Below, in pieces: positions 6,873 to 15,053 of a stretch of DNA of 64,000 bases (position 1 is the first letter of the stretch; each line of letters starts with the position of its first letter). The notes below the pieces were generated by a model. That model was not told the DNA's origin. It saw nothing but the letters and a program-made list of their open reading frames with translations, and searched no databases. Both the position numbers and the translations under genes were made by a program. The DNA comes from Rhodococcus sp. BP22 (lineage in GTDB: Bacteria > Actinomycetota > Actinomycetes > Mycobacteriales > Mycobacteriaceae), in NCBI RefSeq assembly GCF_014281965.1, contig NZ_JACFTB010000008.1, positions 1 to 64,000 on the forward strand. The letters are read 5' to 3'.

Positions 6873-7313
6873 TCAGGCCGGAATGGAGATCGAATCTGCG
6901 GGTAAATCGACGGAAGACGCATTACCTGCCTCGGAACCCGGTGGCGTCGCATCGTCTTCGCTTCGGCCACCGATGATGAAGGCGCCGGTCTCGGGCATCC
7001 AACCGATCGATCCGCGCTCGAACAGGTTGTAGCGCCCGTAACCCGTGGGCGTGGGCTTTTCGTTACTGATCGGGTAACCCAGTGAGCCGTATGGGCCGGC
7101 GTGCTTCAGGTAGTAGGCAAGTATCTCGCCGTGCACTTCGTAGGCACCACCCTCGGGGTGTGCGAACACCGTCGCATTTCGGTATTCGAGCATTCCTCCG
7201 CCACCTGGACCGAGCATGAAATCACCGACCTGCTCACCGATCCACGGATGCTCGTAAGCAAAGCGATCGAATTGATAGCCGAACACTTCGAGACCGCAAT
7301 ATGTAGTGGGCAT
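6873..7313 (-). CDS. LGFP-repeat protein downstream of the SipW-type locus
   Basis: A 146-residue protein with LGFP-type repeats: YGSLGYPISNE, then GRYNLFERGSIGWMPETGA, the pattern of LGFP modules that in mycolic-acid bacteria are linked to cell-envelope proteins. ATG at 7313 is chosen because GGAAGG stands 7 nt upstream; the frame is open further upstream but that part is antisense-like. No signal peptide or membrane segment is visible, which is odd for an LGFP protein. It lies 137 bp downstream of the peptidase-fusion gene on the same strand and may be the last gene of that locus. Confidence 0.7.
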   Translation of the reverse strand: MPTTYCGLEVFGYQFDRFAYEHPWIGEQVGDFMLGPGGGGMLEYRNATVFAHPEGGAYEVHGEILAYYLKHAGPYGSLGYPISNEKPTPTGYGRYNLFERGSIGWMPETGAFIIGGRSEDDATPPGSEAGNASSVDLPADSISIPA

Positions 7314-7450
7314 CGACCGACCTTCCGTCGCATTAATTGCCCACCATTGTCCACCCTTTTCAACGTTCCGGGAAGTCGAATCGAAGATATTCGTTTTTCT
7401 ACCTAGCGAGTGCCCACTGTTGGATGCCCTGCGGCCCCACCGGGTGATCT

Positions 7451-9166
7451 TTATGCAGGCCCAGAGTCGGTGGCGGGCGCCTGTTCCTCCGGTACTTGTT
7501 CCACCGTCGGTGTCTGACCCGGCGCCGGCACGGGCGGCGCCGCCGGGGGCGGCACGACTGCGCTCTTCACCCATACGCCGGAGGACTTCGAGACCGTCCA
7601 CGTGCCGCTCTCCGTCACAATCTGCAGCACGTTGGTGCCAGGCACCCATCCCACTACGTCCTCGGCCGAAACAGCGGTGCGGTATACCTCGTCTTCCGCG
7701 TTCCTGATCACGGCGCTGGGTCCGGTCTCCGATTGGACGACCTGTGCCGTGTAATTGCCGGACGAAGACATGGTCGGTGAAGTGAGCGGCTCCTCCGTCG
7801 GCGCAGGCGCGATCGGCGGGACGGTCGGTACTGTCGGGTCCGGCGAGGTAGTGCTCGTCTCACCAGGTGCCGCCGTCGCGGACGGCGCGGTCGTTGTCGG
7901 CTGAGCAGTCGTCGGCTGATCAGTTGTCGACACTGCATCGGGCGGAGTCGTCGGTGCGACTTCGCGGGTCGACTCGGGATCGATAGACCGACGCTGCGCC
8001 CCTGCCATTGCTGGACTGTTCGCCGGCACTGGATCGTCTCCGGATACATCCACCACAAATCCGGTGCGGCTCGCTCTGCCGCACAGGGCCCGTGTGCCTG
8101 ATGCCGGACGATGGATCACCGTTCCCTCCCATGCGGATGACACTGCACCGGAGGAGGGAAGCACGGTATGAACCTCGAAGTTGAAGTCGTAAGCACGAAT
8201 ATTCGTATTGGGAAACGGCCCGTATACGGCAGTAACTGTGGTCCCTACGATCGCCCCTACGGGTGGAGTTACGTTGAATGTCGTATAGATCTCAATCGGG
8301 TCACTCACCGTTCTCAGCGCTATCTTGTACGTGTACGGAGCACCGATGTGTCTCCAACTCACACGAAGGTCGTAGAAACCTGGTTCCTCGCAGTTGACGA
8401 TCCTGCCACCGCTGAGAGGGCTACTGATCTTCGGCACGAAGACCGCTTTGGTACCCAAAACGCCGCTCTTTGCTGACGCAGAAACAGTGAGCGCGGCGCT
8501 GGTGCCGGATATGTGGACCGTGCCGATGGCCGTCAAGAGAACCAACGCAAGAACAAGGGGAGAACGGTGCAGAGTCTTGGTCGAGCCCTGCCTGGGTATG
8601 GCAGGCTCGGAATCCGATGCCTCATCACGAGACCGACTGTGCAAGTTGATTTCCCGTCGACGCCCATTGTGTCGAACGACAGTCGACAGCACCAGAGCTG
8701 CACCCAGCACGCCGGCCGCAGCGACGAACGGGTTCGAGAGCCAGACGAGAACGTAACCCAATCCGTTCACATGGAGGAAGATTCGGTCCGCTGAGGTGAT
8801 CGCATACGGTTCGAGGTCTGCTTGCTGGTTGGCATCCCCCTTGAGCCGAAGTTCAGCGAATTCGCCCGTGCTGGAGTCGATACCGACCACACGGTGAGTG
8901 ATTCGGCTTCCATCCGCATCGTCGACACTGATGACATCACCGACATGAATATCGGCGGCGGCAACGTTGTGGGCAAAGGCGAGTGCGCCGGTCTCGATGG
9001 TCGGCGACATCGACCCGGATTGGAAGACGAGCGCCTTGACCCCGAAGATCAGTGACACCAGGACCGCAAATCCGACAACCACACCGCCGGCCGCCGCGAG
9101 CAACAGGACAGTCCTGCGGAGACCCTGCGCCGGACTCCGACGTGTTCCACTCGCTTGCATACTCAT
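7451..9166 (-). CDS. SipW-type (S26B) signal peptidase fused to a secreted, Thr/Pro-rich C-terminal region
   Basis: 571 residues. Residues 1-170 are a signal peptidase of the Ser-His-Asp type used by SipW, archaea and eukaryotes: membrane segment 19-43, Ser52 in GSMSP, His91 in ITHRV, Asp111 in KGDAN, second membrane segment about 138-163. Then follow a basic linker (164-200), a third hydrophobic segment (203-220) with a following SGTSAALTVSASAKSGVLGT resembling a SipW-type export signal, a beta-rich region (240-365), a Thr/Pro-rich stretch (400-465), a small beta domain (468-537) and a Pro-rich tail. Ordinary enzymes of this type end near residue 200. It is 7 bp downstream of a TasA-like substrate gene. 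GAGG precedes the ATG. Confidence 0.85.
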   Translation of the reverse strand: MSMQASGTRRSPAQGLRRTVLLLAAAGGVVVGFAVLVSLIFGVKALVFQSGSMSPTIETGALAFAHNVAAADIHVGDVISVDDADGSRITHRVVGIDSSTGEFAELRLKGDANQQADLEPYAITSADRIFLHVNGLGYVLVWLSNPFVAAAGVLGAALVLSTVVRHNGRRREINLHSRSRDEASDSEPAIPRQGSTKTLHRSPLVLALVLLTAIGTVHISGTSAALTVSASAKSGVLGTKAVFVPKISSPLSGGRIVNCEEPGFYDLRVSWRHIGAPYTYKIALRTVSDPIEIYTTFNVTPPVGAIVGTTVTAVYGPFPNTNIRAYDFNFEVHTVLPSSGAVSSAWEGTVIHRPASGTRALCGRASRTGFVVDVSGDDPVPANSPAMAGAQRRSIDPESTREVAPTTPPDAVSTTDQPTTAQPTTTAPSATAAPGETSTTSPDPTVPTVPPIAPAPTEEPLTSPTMSSSGNYTAQVVQSETGPSAVIRNAEDEVYRTAVSAEDVVGWVPGTNVLQIVTESGTWTVSKSSGVWVKSAVVPPPAAPPVPAPGQTPTVEQVPEEQAPATDSGPA

Positions 9167-9173
9167 CTCGACC

Positions 9174-9791
9174 TCACACCGTCGTCGCGGAAAAGTTGAA
9201 GGTGACCGCGCTCAGCGTCTGGTTCTGCACCGCAGTCGGTGCCGTAGCGGACAGTTTGGCAATGAAGCACAGGTTCTCCACGCCCGTAGTCGCGGCAAGA
9301 TCACGAACAGTGGTGATGACATTGACCGAGGCACCGGCTGCAAGTGTCGCCTGCCCCAACTGCGTGCCCGTGCACGTCCCGGTCCGCATGCCGTTGGTGG
9401 TGGTATTGGTGGGCAAGGCGCCCGGGAAGACGGTGACCTGTAGAAACCCGGTGAGCGCTGGACTACCCGCGGGCGTCGTCGCACTCATGCTGTATTTCAA
9501 CGGAATCGAGCCTTTGTTCTGAACCTGTAGGGTTGCTGCTCTGCTTTCACCGGGCAACATGCTCGCCAGTGTCAAGTTGGTGAAGTTGTATGGATTGGCG
9601 TTGTTGATCAGCAAGCTGACGGTTCCGGTGCTGAACGTTCCGGAGGTCGCCGTCGAGTTGTCGGTCCACGCGGCCATCGTGCCGACCGTGCCGAGCCCGA
9701 GGACGATGCCAAGAGTGAGCAGGATACGGACGCGGGTGCTCGTCAGTGATTCCAGCGCACGGCGCAAGGGTGATCTATTCAGCGGGTTCAT
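9174..9791 (-). CDS. TasA/camelysin-like exported protein with SipW-type signal
   Basis: 205 residues. A hydrophobic segment (about 23-40) runs into AAWTDN (40-45) and TSGTFSTGTVSL, the pattern of SipW-processed proteins such as TasA. The motif MLPGES plus QVQNKGSIPL (78-98) matches the LPGD...F.V.N.GS segment of TasA. It is expected to be cleaved by a dedicated signal peptidase and to act outside the cell, possibly as a fibre subunit. Its start overlaps the upstream peptidase gene by 17 bp and it is followed by the peptidase-fusion gene, forming a substrate-peptidase pair. Confidence 0.85.
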   Translation of the reverse strand: MNPLNRSPLRRALESLTSTRVRILLTLGIVLGLGTVGTMAAWTDNSTATSGTFSTGTVSLLINNANPYNFTNLTLASMLPGESRAATLQVQNKGSIPLKYSMSATTPAGSPALTGFLQVTVFPGALPTNTTTNGMRTGTCTGTQLGQATLAAGASVNVITTVRDLAATTGVENLCFIAKLSATAPTAVQNQTLSAVTFNFSATTV

Positions 9792-10359
9792 CGTTCACCT
9801 CTGAATCGACTCTCGGTTGCCGCTGCGGGCCACCCGGACGCCATGCAACCATCAGCAGAACACCCACGAGTACACCTCCGGCGAAGACCGCGACCGGCCC
9901 GGACAACCAGGTGGCGACGTATCCAAGCCTGTTCACACTGAACAGAATTCGATCCGCCTCGCTGAGGACGTAAGGCTCGGAGTCGACGTCTGCGTTGGCG
10001 TCGCCCCTGAGGACGAGGGTAGCGCTGTTACCCGTCATGACTTCGATGGTTTCGATGCGGTGAGTCACCCTATCCCCGCTCGCATTCGTCACCGAGACGA
10101 CGTCACCGACTTCGAGTTCCGTTGCAGGCGTACTTTTCGCAAAAGCAAGCGCGCCGGTGTCGATTGCCGGCGACATCGACCCGGAGCGAAACACGAGGGG
10201 CGTGATACCGAAAATCGCCGCAGCCAGCGCAATCCCGATGCACACCAGCCCGCTGATAGCACCGACCGTAAGCAAGATTTCGCGCAGAACACGTCGGGGG
10301 GTGCCGGACACCTTCGAGGAAGGTCCGTCGATCTCATGTGTCATGGCAGGCCCGCTCAT
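9775..10359 (-). CDS. SipW-type (S26B) signal peptidase I
   Basis: 194 residues. Membrane segment about 28-53, Ser61 in SGSMSP, His100 in VTHRI, Asp120 in RGDAN, second membrane segment about 158-178. The Ser-His-Asp set marks the SipW/archaeal class rather than the Ser-Lys LepB class. Start: ATG at 10359 overlaps the stop of the upstream substrate gene (ATGA), which rules out the longer open frame to 10584. Likely role: processing of the TasA-like proteins on either side. Confidence 0.9.
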   Translation of the reverse strand: MSGPAMTHEIDGPSSKVSGTPRRVLREILLTVGAISGLVCIGIALAAAIFGITPLVFRSGSMSPAIDTGALAFAKSTPATELEVGDVVSVTNASGDRVTHRIETIEVMTGNSATLVLRGDANADVDSEPYVLSEADRILFSVNRLGYVATWLSGPVAVFAGGVLVGVLLMVAWRPGGPQRQPRVDSEVNDEPAE

Positions 10360-10982
10360 GTGGACGTCGCAGTGAAAGTGAGCGAGATCGTTCCAGTCCG
10401 CACCGTTCCGGGCAAGATCGCGCTCGAGGGCATCGTGACCGAAATACACAGTGGGTCTGCACCTGGTGTCGCTCCAACTTTGGCCGCCACGTTCGGACGT
10501 GTCAGTGGGGTCGTACCAGTGACGACGAACGGCTGTGTGGAGGTAGTGAGACCGGTTCGAGTCCCGAGCACGGTGCCCGTGCACGTTGTACCGGCGTATG
10601 CCTCGAGTACCAGCAATTGACCGAAGGGCGCGTCCGTCATCGAGGCTCCAATTGTGTAGCTGAACACGACCGAGCCCTGGTTCTGCACGACGAACGATGC
10701 GGAAACCGCGTCACCGGGCAGCATTGCGGCCTTCTTCAGTCCCGTCGAGATAGATGCCGGGTTGTTGTCCACGCCGTCGAGCATGATGTCGATCGTGCCC
10801 GTCTTGAATTGCCCGGACGTCGCCACCGAGGTATCCGACCATGCAGCCAGGGTTCCTACTGCTCCGAGACCTAGGACGATTCCGATCGACATGATCGCAC
10901 GTGCCCGAGCACTGACGAGGGCCTGGCTAATTCGCCGCATTGCGGCCGACGGGTCGAACTCGTCACTCTTACGCGCGATCAC
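10356..10982 (-). CDS. TasA/camelysin-like exported protein with SipW-type signal
   Basis: 208 residues from GTG 10982, chosen because it overlaps the upstream stop (GTGA); the longer frame to 11036 would overlap the neighbour. A hydrophobic segment (about 29-46) leads into AAWSDT (46-51) and TSGQFKTGTIDI. MLPGDA with VVQNQGS (87-104) is the TasA-like core motif. It closely resembles the 9174-9791 protein, and each is followed by a peptidase gene, so the two substrate-peptidase pairs look like a tandem duplication. Confidence 0.85.
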   Translation of the reverse strand: MIARKSDEFDPSAAMRRISQALVSARARAIMSIGIVLGLGAVGTLAAWSDTSVATSGQFKTGTIDIMLDGVDNNPASISTGLKKAAMLPGDAVSASFVVQNQGSVVFSYTIGASMTDAPFGQLLVLEAYAGTTCTGTVLGTRTGLTTSTQPFVVTGTTPLTRPNVAAKVGATPGADPLCISVTMPSSAILPGTVRTGTISLTFTATST

Positions 10983-11497
10983 GGCTGAGCCTCTTCCTGT
11001 CCAGCGACCGGGTTTCGTAGTGCCCACCCGACACATACGTCATCGTCTTCTTTGTCCCATTGGACCAGGAGGCCGATACCCGCTGCTGCATCTTGTGTTT
11101 CGTTTCCAGCATTGTTGGCCATGCCTAGAGTTGTTCTGACCGAGCGTTTTTCATGGGCCGGCACCAAAATGTGCGTACACCGTGTTTCCTGATCCCCACC
11201 CTCGACGGACAGTGTCAACGCCTCCCGGAATGCGAGGTTGGGGCTTTCCACGAACAGGACCAGGCGACCATCGTCTTCGGTGTCGTTGAAGACGTGGAAC
11301 TCCGAACTGCGTCGATCCCCGGGAACCCATCGAATATCCCGGTCGAACAACGGATCGGAAAGAGACTTCGACCACTGCTCGCCGTCGCTGCTGTAGCCGA
11401 CACTTTGAGCTGGTCGGCTCGGACCGGCTCCGATAAGCAGGACGATCGCCAAGGTTGAGAGCCCAGCGACCCAGCAGACCGACACGTTGCCTGTCAT
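10979..11497 (-). CDS. Secreted protein of the SipW-type locus, classical signal peptide
   Basis: 172 residues. An N-terminal hydrophobic segment (about 8-25) ends in a plausible Sec cleavage region (SRPAQS). It lacks the A-W-x-D and TSG motif of its neighbours. It does share the later WVPGDRRSSEFHVFND pattern (57-72), equivalent to LPGD...F.V.N in the TasA-like proteins, so it may have a related beta-sandwich. It overlaps both neighbours by 4 bp and is thus embedded in the operon. I do not recognise a named family; an accessory, capping or chaperone role is inference only. Confidence 0.7.
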   Translation of the reverse strand: MTGNVSVCWVAGLSTLAIVLLIGAGPSRPAQSVGYSSDGEQWSKSLSDPLFDRDIRWVPGDRRSSEFHVFNDTEDDGRLVLFVESPNLAFREALTLSVEGGDQETRCTHILVPAHEKRSVRTTLGMANNAGNETQDAAAGIGLLVQWDKEDDDVCVGWALRNPVAGQEEAQP

Positions 11498-12096
11498 GGC
11501 GCTCCAGATGCCTTCCGCTTGTTACGGTGCTCCATTCCTGCGCTACCGAACATGTAGAGCGCGTACCCCGCAAGCCCGATCACGATGATCGTCACCGTGA
11601 TCTTCCGCTGTTCACCGTTGAGCCAATTGTTGACGTAGCCCATGTAGGGGATCGCGTACCAGAGTTTGCCGCGAATCTGGCCGACCTGCACTGGATTCTC
11701 GTCGTCGGAGCCGTTGTTGTCCCCGCGGGTGATGAAGGTGAGTTCACCTGCACCGCTCTGTCGGATTGCCACAATTCGGTGCGTCACCAATTCCGGTAAG
11801 CCCGAGGCAAATTGATAGGTGATGGGGGTGCCGACTCCGAGTTCGTGGGGATCGACCGGCTTCACGACCACCAGGGTGCCCGGCGGATACGCAGGCCGCA
11901 TCGACGAGGTGAGAATCGTGTACGGGGTCGCCCCCGCGACTCGCGGGAGTACCACTGTCACAGCCAGAATCATCAGCATCACCGCCAACAATGCGTAAGA
12001 AACGATACGGCTGAACCACCACCGAACGCCGCTCTTCTCGTCAGCCTCCATCACCGGAACAGTCGGGATCACGTCGGTGTCGTCGACTGCACTCAT
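11494..12096 (-). CDS. SipW-type (S26B) signal peptidase I
   Basis: 200 residues. Acidic cytoplasmic N-terminus, membrane segment about 30-51, Ser65 in TSSMRP, His106 in VTHRI, Asp126 in RGDNN, PYMGYVNNWL and a second membrane segment about 165-185. It belongs to the Ser-His-Asp class. It is more distant from the other two peptidases of the locus than they are from each other. It overlaps both neighbours by 4 bp (11494-11497 and 12093-12096), so it is translationally coupled to the 12093-12656 substrate. Confidence 0.9.
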   Translation of the reverse strand: MSAVDDTDVIPTVPVMEADEKSGVRWWFSRIVSYALLAVMLMILAVTVVLPRVAGATPYTILTSSMRPAYPPGTLVVVKPVDPHELGVGTPITYQFASGLPELVTHRIVAIRQSGAGELTFITRGDNNGSDDENPVQVGQIRGKLWYAIPYMGYVNNWLNGEQRKITVTIIVIGLAGYALYMFGSAGMEHRNKRKASGAP

Positions 12097-12656
12097 GTCT
12101 GATCCGCCCTGAACGAAAACGTGACCTGCGAAGTCGCGCTCTGCGGTGGCTCAGAAACGGTCGCCAACCGAAAGCACCACACCTCGTTCGCAGTGGGTGC
12201 GAGCAATCTGGCGGCGGGAGCAACCGGAACTTGCGCACTGGATGCTGGACCGTCGAACAGAACCGTCGTGCTACCGGTAGGCGCACCGCCGTTCACTACG
12301 CAGTTGGTTGCTGCAACAACTTTGGTGATGGTCAAATTGAACGGGATGGGGATCACCCCACTGACGGATGTACCTTGCAGCCGGTAGTTGAACGGCTGGT
12401 TACCCGCATTGCGAATCGACAGTGGTGCCTGCGAGAACCCGTTGGGCCTCAAATTCGACGACCCCAACGCCGCGAGGGTGTAGTTGTTCACCTCGGTGCC
12501 CGATGGACCCACCTTGATGTCCAAAGTGCCCGAAGTGACCGTTCCACCGGCAATCGCTTCCTGATCACGCCACAACGCGCCCGTCGTCTGTGCTGATCCG
12601 AAGACCAGCACGACGACGGACGCGGCTGCGAGCGCCCAGTAGCGCCTGTGCTTCAA
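12093..12656 (-). CDS. SipW-type signal exported protein
   Basis: 187 residues. Basic MKHRRYW start, hydrophobic segment 8-24, then GALWRDQEAIAGGTVTSG (26-43): the W-x-D and TSGxLDI pattern of SipW-dependent exported proteins. SIRNAGNQPFNY corresponds to the F.V.N.G part of the TasA core, while the LPGD position reads LRPNG. It is likely a secreted subunit processed by the adjacent peptidase. It starts 12 bp after the previous gene of the operon. Confidence 0.8.
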   Translation of the reverse strand: MKHRRYWALAAASVVVLVFGSAQTTGALWRDQEAIAGGTVTSGTLDIKVGPSGTEVNNYTLAALGSSNLRPNGFSQAPLSIRNAGNQPFNYRLQGTSVSGVIPIPFNLTITKVVAATNCVVNGGAPTGSTTVLFDGPASSAQVPVAPAARLLAPTANEVWCFRLATVSEPPQSATSQVTFSFRADQT

Positions 12657-12668
12657 ACCGAGACTCGA

Positions 12669-13229
12669 CTACAGGGTCCGAGACTGCTCGAGCACAAGAG
12701 TGAAGGCTTCGAGGTCTATCTGCTGGTTCTGCGCAACCTGGTCTGTGGTCGTCTCATCGAAGTCGAATGTAATGGTGAGGTTCACCGTTTGATCGCCCGA
12801 CGTGAGTCGAACTTTGCCACCGTCGGTTGGTAGTTGCGTCGGGCCAGACGTGGCAGCGATACTGACGTCGACAGCCTCAACCAGCTCCGCATTGCTTGCA
12901 CCCGGGGCGATGTCAGCGATATCGACCGACAGGTCAGCCAACAGGTTGTCACCGTCAGCCAAGATGCCGTAGCTGGCCGAGTAGGTGATGATGTCGCCCG
13001 GAACAATTCGGTAAGCCGAAATGTCGGCGATGTCGCCTGCCGGCTTCACATCACTTGTCGTCTGACGCCACACCGGTGCCGTCGCTTCGGTCAACGACAA
13101 TTCACCCGATGTGATCGTTCCACCGGCGATATCTTCGCTGTCGTTCCACAGAGCGAAAGATCCCAAACCGCCGAGCAGCAATACTGCTGCCGCGCCTGCG
13201 GCTACTGCGCCTTTGGTTGATTTTTTCAT
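12669..13229 (-). CDS. Alternate-signal (SipW-cognate) exported protein, first gene of the locus
   Basis: 186 residues from ATG 13229; the frame stays open to 13346 but homology starts at MKKSTKG and AGAAAG stands upstream. Hydrophobic segment 8-24, then ALWNDSEDIAGGTITSGEL (26-43), the alternate signal typical of actinobacterial proteins encoded beside SipW-type peptidases. IVPGDIITYSA (75-85) gives the PGD motif. It probably resembles the family described from Rhodococcus erythropolis as alternate-signal-mediated exported proteins. Being promoter-proximal, it may be the major product. Confidence 0.82.
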   Translation of the reverse strand: MKKSTKGAVAAGAAAVLLLGGLGSFALWNDSEDIAGGTITSGELSLTEATAPVWRQTTSDVKPAGDIADISAYRIVPGDIITYSASYGILADGDNLLADLSVDIADIAPGASNAELVEAVDVSIAATSGPTQLPTDGGKVRLTSGDQTVNLTITFDFDETTTDQVAQNQQIDLEAFTLVLEQSRTL

Positions 13230-13579: not shown

Positions 13580-13618
13580 AAAAAAATCGGCCCCAAGAGC
13601 CTGAGCTCTCGGGGCCGA
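13580..13618 (-). terminator. Intrinsic terminator of purA
   Basis: TCGGCCCC and AGAGC (13587-13600) pair with GCTCT and GGGGCCGA (13605-13618) around the loop CTGA, with a single A-C mismatch. On the minus strand this GC-rich stem is followed by seven Ts (complement of 13580-13586). It lies 20 bp after the purA stop. Confidence 0.9.
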
Positions 13619-13637
13619 TAATCTAGAACTGAAGAGA

Positions 13638-15053
<1,416 letters not shown>

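Follow-up and report, generated by a model that had tools for sequence, protein, structure and literature searches.

The window analysed here, a stretch of 64,000 nucleotides from Rhodococcus sp. BP22 (host genome 4.48 Mb), contains a locus of eight closely packed minus-strand genes, g1 to g8 (13229–7451), located between purA (13638-14927) and a gene for an LGFP-repeat protein. An original prediction, made from the letters alone, had described it as a SipW/TasA-type fibre locus in a mycolic-acid actinobacterium. Neighbouring genes overlap by 4 base pairs (bp) at g2/g3, g3/g4, g4/g5 and g5/g6 and by 17 bp at g6/g7, and are separated by 12 bp at g1/g2 and by 7 bp at g7/g8. The products are three signal peptidases of the SipW type (S26B), four proteins that carry a SipW-type signal and one extra protein with a PGD core (g4); all features of the window whose coordinates are given below lie on the minus strand. 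Relatives with species names, found through the g3 peptidase, belonged in 16 of 16 loci to Rhodococcus or Rhodococcoides, the closest being Rhodococcus sp. 1163 (95%). The survey of gene order across the genus that the prediction had proposed recovered the locus in 29 of 37 genomes.

As predicted from the presence of Ser, His and Asp, g3, g6 and g8 are, on sequence evidence, SipW/archaeal-type (S26B) signal peptidases. All three pass the cut-off of TIGR02228 (51.85), with 87.0, 52.9 and 59.7 bits, and the catalytic residues Ser, His and Asp are kept in every one of the 109 peptidase domains aligned, the window's three included; this count and the pairing counts given below leave out L122, L127, L129, L131, L132, identical domains and second copies of loci already included. 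The Bacillus SipW equivalog NF046067 (cut-off 190) is reached by none of them (72.4, 48.2 and 46.0 bits). Genome-wide, the sole other TIGR02228 match at E <= 0.001 falls below the cut-off and lies on another contig, and all three matches over the cut-off of TIGR04088, which describes the SipW-cognate signal, belong to this locus. This confinement of the above-threshold matches of both profiles argues that the locus is more than a product of chance. A tree of 110 peptidase domains was built with a quick method, which gave long-branch warnings, and with L122, L127, L129 and identical domains left out. On its SipA side, 43 of the 44 rows of the starred set are stand-alone peptidases, and g3 (SipA; 200 amino acids, 11494..12096) is placed there. 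The SipB group (branch support 80) consists mainly of peptidases fused to a tail (44 of 49 rows), and a third group is made up of 11 peptidases that stand alone and come from other clusters in the genus. The tail-less SipB peptidase g6 (194 amino acids, 9775..10359) belongs to a starred set in which 15 rows are fused and 4 are not, and since it nests among fused peptidases it has probably lost its tail.

The W-x-D ... TSG signal that had been predicted in four exported proteins is present, by sequence, in g1, g2, g5 and g7. The TIGR04088 cut-off of 19 is passed by g1 (31.7 bits), g5 (36.2) and g7 (32.1), g2 not being listed in the profile scan. The product of g1 (186 amino acids, 12669..13229) is a type I SipW-dependent exported protein that belongs to the TIGR04089 family (cut-off 60) with 166.8 bits and an E-value of 5.1e-49; in g2 (187 amino acids, 12093..12656), whose signal reads LWRD...TSG, only the N-terminal part matches this family, with 25.2 bits. 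The two type II, or TasA-like, substrates are g5 (208 amino acids, 10356..10982, with a GTG start assumed) and g7 (205 amino acids, 9174..9791). A PGD/PGE core shared by five proteins had also been proposed; it is found in g1, g4, g5 and g7, but g2 has PNG at that position, and the core is the only part common to the g4 and g5 profiles. The Pfam family PF12389 (TasA/camelysin; cut-off 22.5) recognised g5 with 26.1 bits, scored g7 at 19.4, below the cut-off, and gave no match for g1, g2 or g4. Both g5 (14.8 bits) and g7 (16.2 bits) fail the TasA equivalog NF046066 (cut-off 450). The structure model of g5, with a mean predicted local distance difference test (pLDDT) of 79, returned the TasA fibre 8aur as its first match in the PDB, followed by archaeal bundling pili and donor-strand pilins, though no match reaches an E-value of 0.001. 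By its Pfam profile g5 is TasA/camelysin-like, and the prediction of a SipW/TasA-type locus in a mycolic-acid actinobacterium is upheld. Searches of the PDB gave nothing convincing for a profile of g1 relatives (best E 0.075) or for g4 (best E 1.2).

The most distinctive gene of the locus is g8 (571 amino acids, 7451..9166), in which TIGR02228, a 17-row alignment and a structure model delineate a SipB peptidase fused to a tail resembling a surface protein. A first transmembrane segment (TM1) and the peptidase domain occupy residues ~12-133 (8768..9133), as defined by profile, model and Foldseek; Foldseek placed two structures of the human signal peptidase complex at the top, 7p2p (E 2.1e-4) and 7p2q (E 2.8e-4). 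A second segment (TM2, residues ~146-176, 8639..8731) was drawn from a model helix and hydropathy, and a third (TM3), together with an internal signal-like stretch (residues ~203-235, 8462..8560), from motif and profile scoring and the model. Beyond the membrane segments, beta strands in a low-confidence model tentatively outline a fibronectin type III (FNIII) or immunoglobulin-like domain at residues ~257-368 (8063..8398); FNIII chains occurred among the Foldseek matches at E ~0.01 and above, and the pLDDT of the whole g8 model (53.7) is poor. A Pro/Thr-rich linker with low pLDDT (residues ~369-466, 7769..8062) leads to a C-terminal beta domain that was modelled and is conserved in the 17-row alignment (residues ~467-537, 7556..7768). 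The predicted architecture, which is newly described here, would thus comprise peptidase, third membrane segment, fibronectin-like domain, Pro/Thr stalk and C-terminal beta domain. The original reading had missed both this fusion of a peptidase to a substrate-like surface protein and the LPXTG-type anchors of the g4 family discussed below. In the genus, SipB is fused to the tail in 28 of the 29 genomes with the locus. The exception, L075, carries the tail as a separate gene of 380 amino acids, whose start overlaps the stop of the peptidase gene and whose product has a SipW-like signal at its front. Among plasmid records, 8 match the peptidase part of g8 only. A protein of 615 amino acids annotated as 'signal peptidase I' on a plasmid of Pseudarthrobacter psychrotolerans (L146:5281-7128) appears by eye to unite in one chain a domain with a SipW-type signal, a peptidase behind it and a tail ending in LASTG. 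The following gene, which shares 4 bp with it, seems to encode a small protein of the SipW type.

A SipW-type motif is found in the TM3 region of many of the 52 distinct open reading frames that encode a peptidase whose tail is 90 residues or longer, for instance AAWNDPATATSG (L062) and AYWTDVATATSG (L119). Fifty of the 52 were kept after dropping regions L122, L127, L129 and L132, and 43 of these 50 entered the domain and TIGR04088 scans. A home-made signal profile, trained on 39 stand-alone substrates only, gave TM3 a median of 5.4 bits, with 26 of 50 segments above 5 as against 2/50 for TM1 and 2/49 for TM2. Among 2020 background open frames, 33 also scored above 8 bits with this profile; these may include true substrates as well as artefacts, and at least one high score near a locus (L093) resembles an artefact of composition. 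A short regular-expression motif, which is weaker evidence than the profile, matched 20 of 50 TM3 segments, none of 50 TM1 segments and 6 of 49 TM2 segments, the TM2 windows being able to extend into TM3. TIGR04088 detected a signal in a single one of the 43 fused tails, and none in g8 of the window, and the whole-protein scan of fusions with this profile matched 0 of 17. The window's own TM3 segment scored -1.9 bits on the home-made profile and is a degenerate signal. Because of this score and of the single TIGR04088 match, the cleavage site of the g8 clade may have been lost or altered. These observations bear on a rather unlikely alternative, according to which the g8 tail is never cut and serves as a membrane-anchored arm, whose FNIII-like domain, Pro/Thr stalk and C-terminal beta domain extend through the arabinogalactan/mycolate wall layer so that substrates or the growing fibre are kept close to the peptidase. 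The degenerate signal of the window's clade, the stalk with its conserved C-terminal domain and the near-constant fusion across the genus are what such an arm would lead one to expect, but clear SipW-type motifs in many relatives and the separate signal-bearing tail of L075 speak against it.

The tails of other actinomycetes hold Big-type (Big_13) domains in 5 of 43 cases and Laminin-G domains in 3 of 43. Such domains would suit an improbable explanation in which the SipW-type substrates are separate surface or secreted proteins, adhesins or enzymes that share an export route and build no fibre, and g1 and g2, which have no TasA match of their own, would fit in with it; the fold matches of g5, however, are subunits of fibres that polymerise by donor strand, with several families among the top matches. 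The fused peptidases of L133-L136 form a separate clade on a long branch in the quick tree (Shimodaira–Hasegawa-like approximate likelihood-ratio support 100) and are perhaps the source of the three Laminin-G tails.

The product of g4 (172 amino acids, 10979..11497) is an exported PGD-core protein without a SipW motif, for which general scans of NCBIfam and Pfam gave no match. Beyond the genus, a profile of 17 genus sequences identified 11 homologues, with E-values from 3.6e-22 to 2.6e-9. They are located at the same place, in the gap between SipA and the type II gene, in 9 of the 10 class-level loci that have both a stand-alone and a fused peptidase, the exception being L126. An LxxTG sorting signal stands at the end of 9 of these 11 homologues, and 2 of 8 proteins scanned pass a curated anchor cut-off. 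In other actinomycetes the g4 family mostly bears an LPXTG-type sorting signal. The combination of LxxTG, hydrophobic stretch and basic tail is absent from g4 of the window and from the other 10 genus rows of the family alignment, in whose 21 rows S, D, P, G and D are invariant. Within the genus, g4 is present in 20 of the 29 loci and absent in 9. What appears to be an independent fusion was observed at L123:3568-5202, where a peptidase of the SipA side is joined to a domain that resembles g4 (E 1.6e-5) and has an LAATG end.

Across genomes, each peptidase type was found next to its own type of substrate. SipA and SipB were called by the tail together with a tree-derived list of tail-less SipB, L122, L123, L127, L129 and L131-L136 being labelled by length only. 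A type I (TIGR04089-like) gene precedes SipA in 40 of 42 cases and a type II (TasA-like) gene precedes SipB in 44 of 44; in the 12 loci outside the genus the figures are 13/14 and 15/15. The locus thus seems to offer a set of naturally specific peptidase–substrate pairs, type I with SipA and type II with SipB. In the tree of type II proteins, g5 groups with most of the genus and g7 falls outside that group, its nearest rows being L105 and L075, and the peptidase tree likewise places g6 with most of the genus and g8 outside. This parallel placement suggests that each cassette moves as a whole, though the branching beyond the main group is poorly resolved. A simple tandem duplication of g5-g6 into g7-g8 was not supported, as g5/g6 stand with most of the genus and g7/g8 outside that group, with L105 and L075 nearest or among them on the same poorly resolved forks; either the cassettes are old or one of them was acquired. 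The third peptidase is, by these comparisons, that of a second TasA-like/SipB cassette. That it is mere redundancy, with g6 a decaying copy after loss of its tail, is consistent with its nesting among fused peptidases and with the complete tail of g8, but we hold this to be quite improbable because all catalytic residues of g6 are intact and because each of the cassettes g5-g6 and g7-g8 has retained a substrate of its own, the two being placed apart in both trees.

The recurrence of the gene order extends well beyond the genus. A class-wide search with TIGR02228 gave matches in 277 of 394 genomes, 111 of them over the cut-off. Of 20 class-level regions, selected because they hold long open frames, 10 contained a fused peptidase as well as a stand-alone one, mostly as type I–SipA–gap–type II–SipB fusion. 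The order substrate I–SipA–g4–TasA-like–SipB fusion, newly reported here, recurs in distant actinomycetes. Three peptidases in one operon had been considered unusual; this did not hold, since 4 of the 20 regions contain three or four and 4 of the 37 genus genomes contain three in this locus, and the number was rejected as a unique trait. Two further genomes (L085 and L088) have a third-clade peptidase near the locus. A second kind of SipW cluster exists in the genus (L062, L085, L088, L095-L104), at the purA-ogt site or away from it, with exported proteins and a stand-alone third-clade peptidase; those that were read encode a protein of ~480-530 amino acids with a SipW-like signal, a Pro/Thr stalk and a similar C-terminus.

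At the borders of the locus, a terminator-like hairpin with a 15-pair stem and a T run lies after purA, upstream of g1 (13586..13619). Because of its position the g1-g8 unit probably has its own promoter, although a sigma-70 scan of the region gave none. Sites of all kinds were about as frequent in the region as in shuffled sequence (6 found, 5.8 expected). The LGFP-repeat gene (6873..7313, start ~7313; PF08310, E 2.5e-19) begins 137 bp past g8. It had been counted with the locus, but homologues with 66–73% identity occur in the four genus genomes without a TIGR02228 match over the cut-off, the G310 copy being in two pieces. The gene is thus not specific to the locus, was rejected as part of the unit and probably lies outside it.

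On balance, and by analogy with TasA, we lean slightly towards the interpretation that the locus makes a donor-strand surface fibre from self-contained peptidase–substrate cassettes (g1-g2-SipA, g5-g6 and g7-g8), with a TapA-like starter carried on its own peptidase. The gene content, profile matches, catalytic residues, recurring order, pairing, fused or split tail and anchor motifs are observed and the g5 fold is modelled; from these we infer the post-translational steps, that is, export, cleavage, donor-strand exchange, polarity and fibre formation. Each SipW-type peptidase would cut the special signal peptide off its own substrate and free a conserved mature N-terminus, A-W-x-D ... T-S-G-x-F-x-T-G, which could act as the donor strand for the next subunit. 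The shaft subunits g5 and g7 would be both donor and acceptor. The SipB-fused tail, in which a complete FNIII-like domain comes after a signal, would be a donor-only starter like TapA, present 1:1 with and on its own peptidase, which would put start and processing at one site; of the features that suggest this, the signal motif is seen in relatives and degenerate in the window, and the FNIII-like domain comes from a low-confidence model. With its PGD core and no SipW signal, g4 would be acceptor-only and, where an LPXTG-type anchor is present, would tie the other end of the fibre to the wall. Donor-only tail, donor-plus-acceptor shaft and acceptor-only g4 would then give the fibre a polarity, one end being the starter or tip and the opposite end the wall anchor; loci without g4 would need another anchor. 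In the window the tail may stay attached, since the internal cleavage motif is degenerate, and so anchor the fibre to the membrane. A broader proposal, which we regard as possible without quite favouring it, is that of a widespread actinomycete self-loading fibre machine, in which a peptidase is made in one chain with the starter (or a subunit) of the fibre that it processes and releases it, in cis or in trans, by cutting at an internal site of the SipW type, thereby coupling enzyme, nucleation and assembly site. The set would be completed by a second peptidase that has a substrate class of its own and by an acceptor protein anchored in the wall. The locus thereby becomes a candidate TasA-type fibre system for mycolic-acid and other actinomycetes; because of the fusion, experiments could directly address how signal cleavage is tied to the start of the fibre, and candidate acceptor, shaft and starter proteins are provided for probing donor-strand polarity.

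Fibres of the TasA type have been described in Bacillus and in archaea. The portions of the open full-text literature covered, which exclude most subscription papers and all bioRxiv preprints, yielded no account of the fusion or of the recurrent gene arrangement. The NCBIfam models TIGR04089 and TIGR04088 together with TIGR02228 already catalogue SipW-type signals and peptidases, and g1 is a clear TIGR04089 member, but the parts are named singly there and three annotated plasmid regions label the peptidase, fused too, only as 'signal peptidase I'. The tapA-sipW-tasA operon of Bacillus subtilis likewise combines a dedicated SipW-type peptidase, a TasA-like protein with a similar mature start and a starter with an immunoglobulin domain (PMC9674648, PMC10151520). 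It has one unfused peptidase, whereas the present locus has peptidases of two types, each paired with a particular type of substrate, together with the fusion, the TIGR04089 type I substrate, g4 and an envelope of the mycolic-acid type. In Clostridium perfringens, the filament protein encoded by sipW-bsaA likewise depends on SipW for its secretion and its polymerisation in the matrix, and a sortase gene adjoins; there is one SipW in the operon, the sortase was found not to be needed for polymers or pellicle, and the text consulted describes no fusion (PMC7395162). The bundling pili of Pyrobaculum calidifontis (7ueg), the second-best PDB match of the g5 model, differ in being archaeal. The LPXTG sortase pili of Gram-positive bacteria resemble the present system in the sorting signals that end the g4 relatives; they differ in that no LPXTG-type signal is seen at the end of the shaft-type rows of an alignment of 19 rows chosen by motif, and polymerisation here would be non-covalent, by donor strand.

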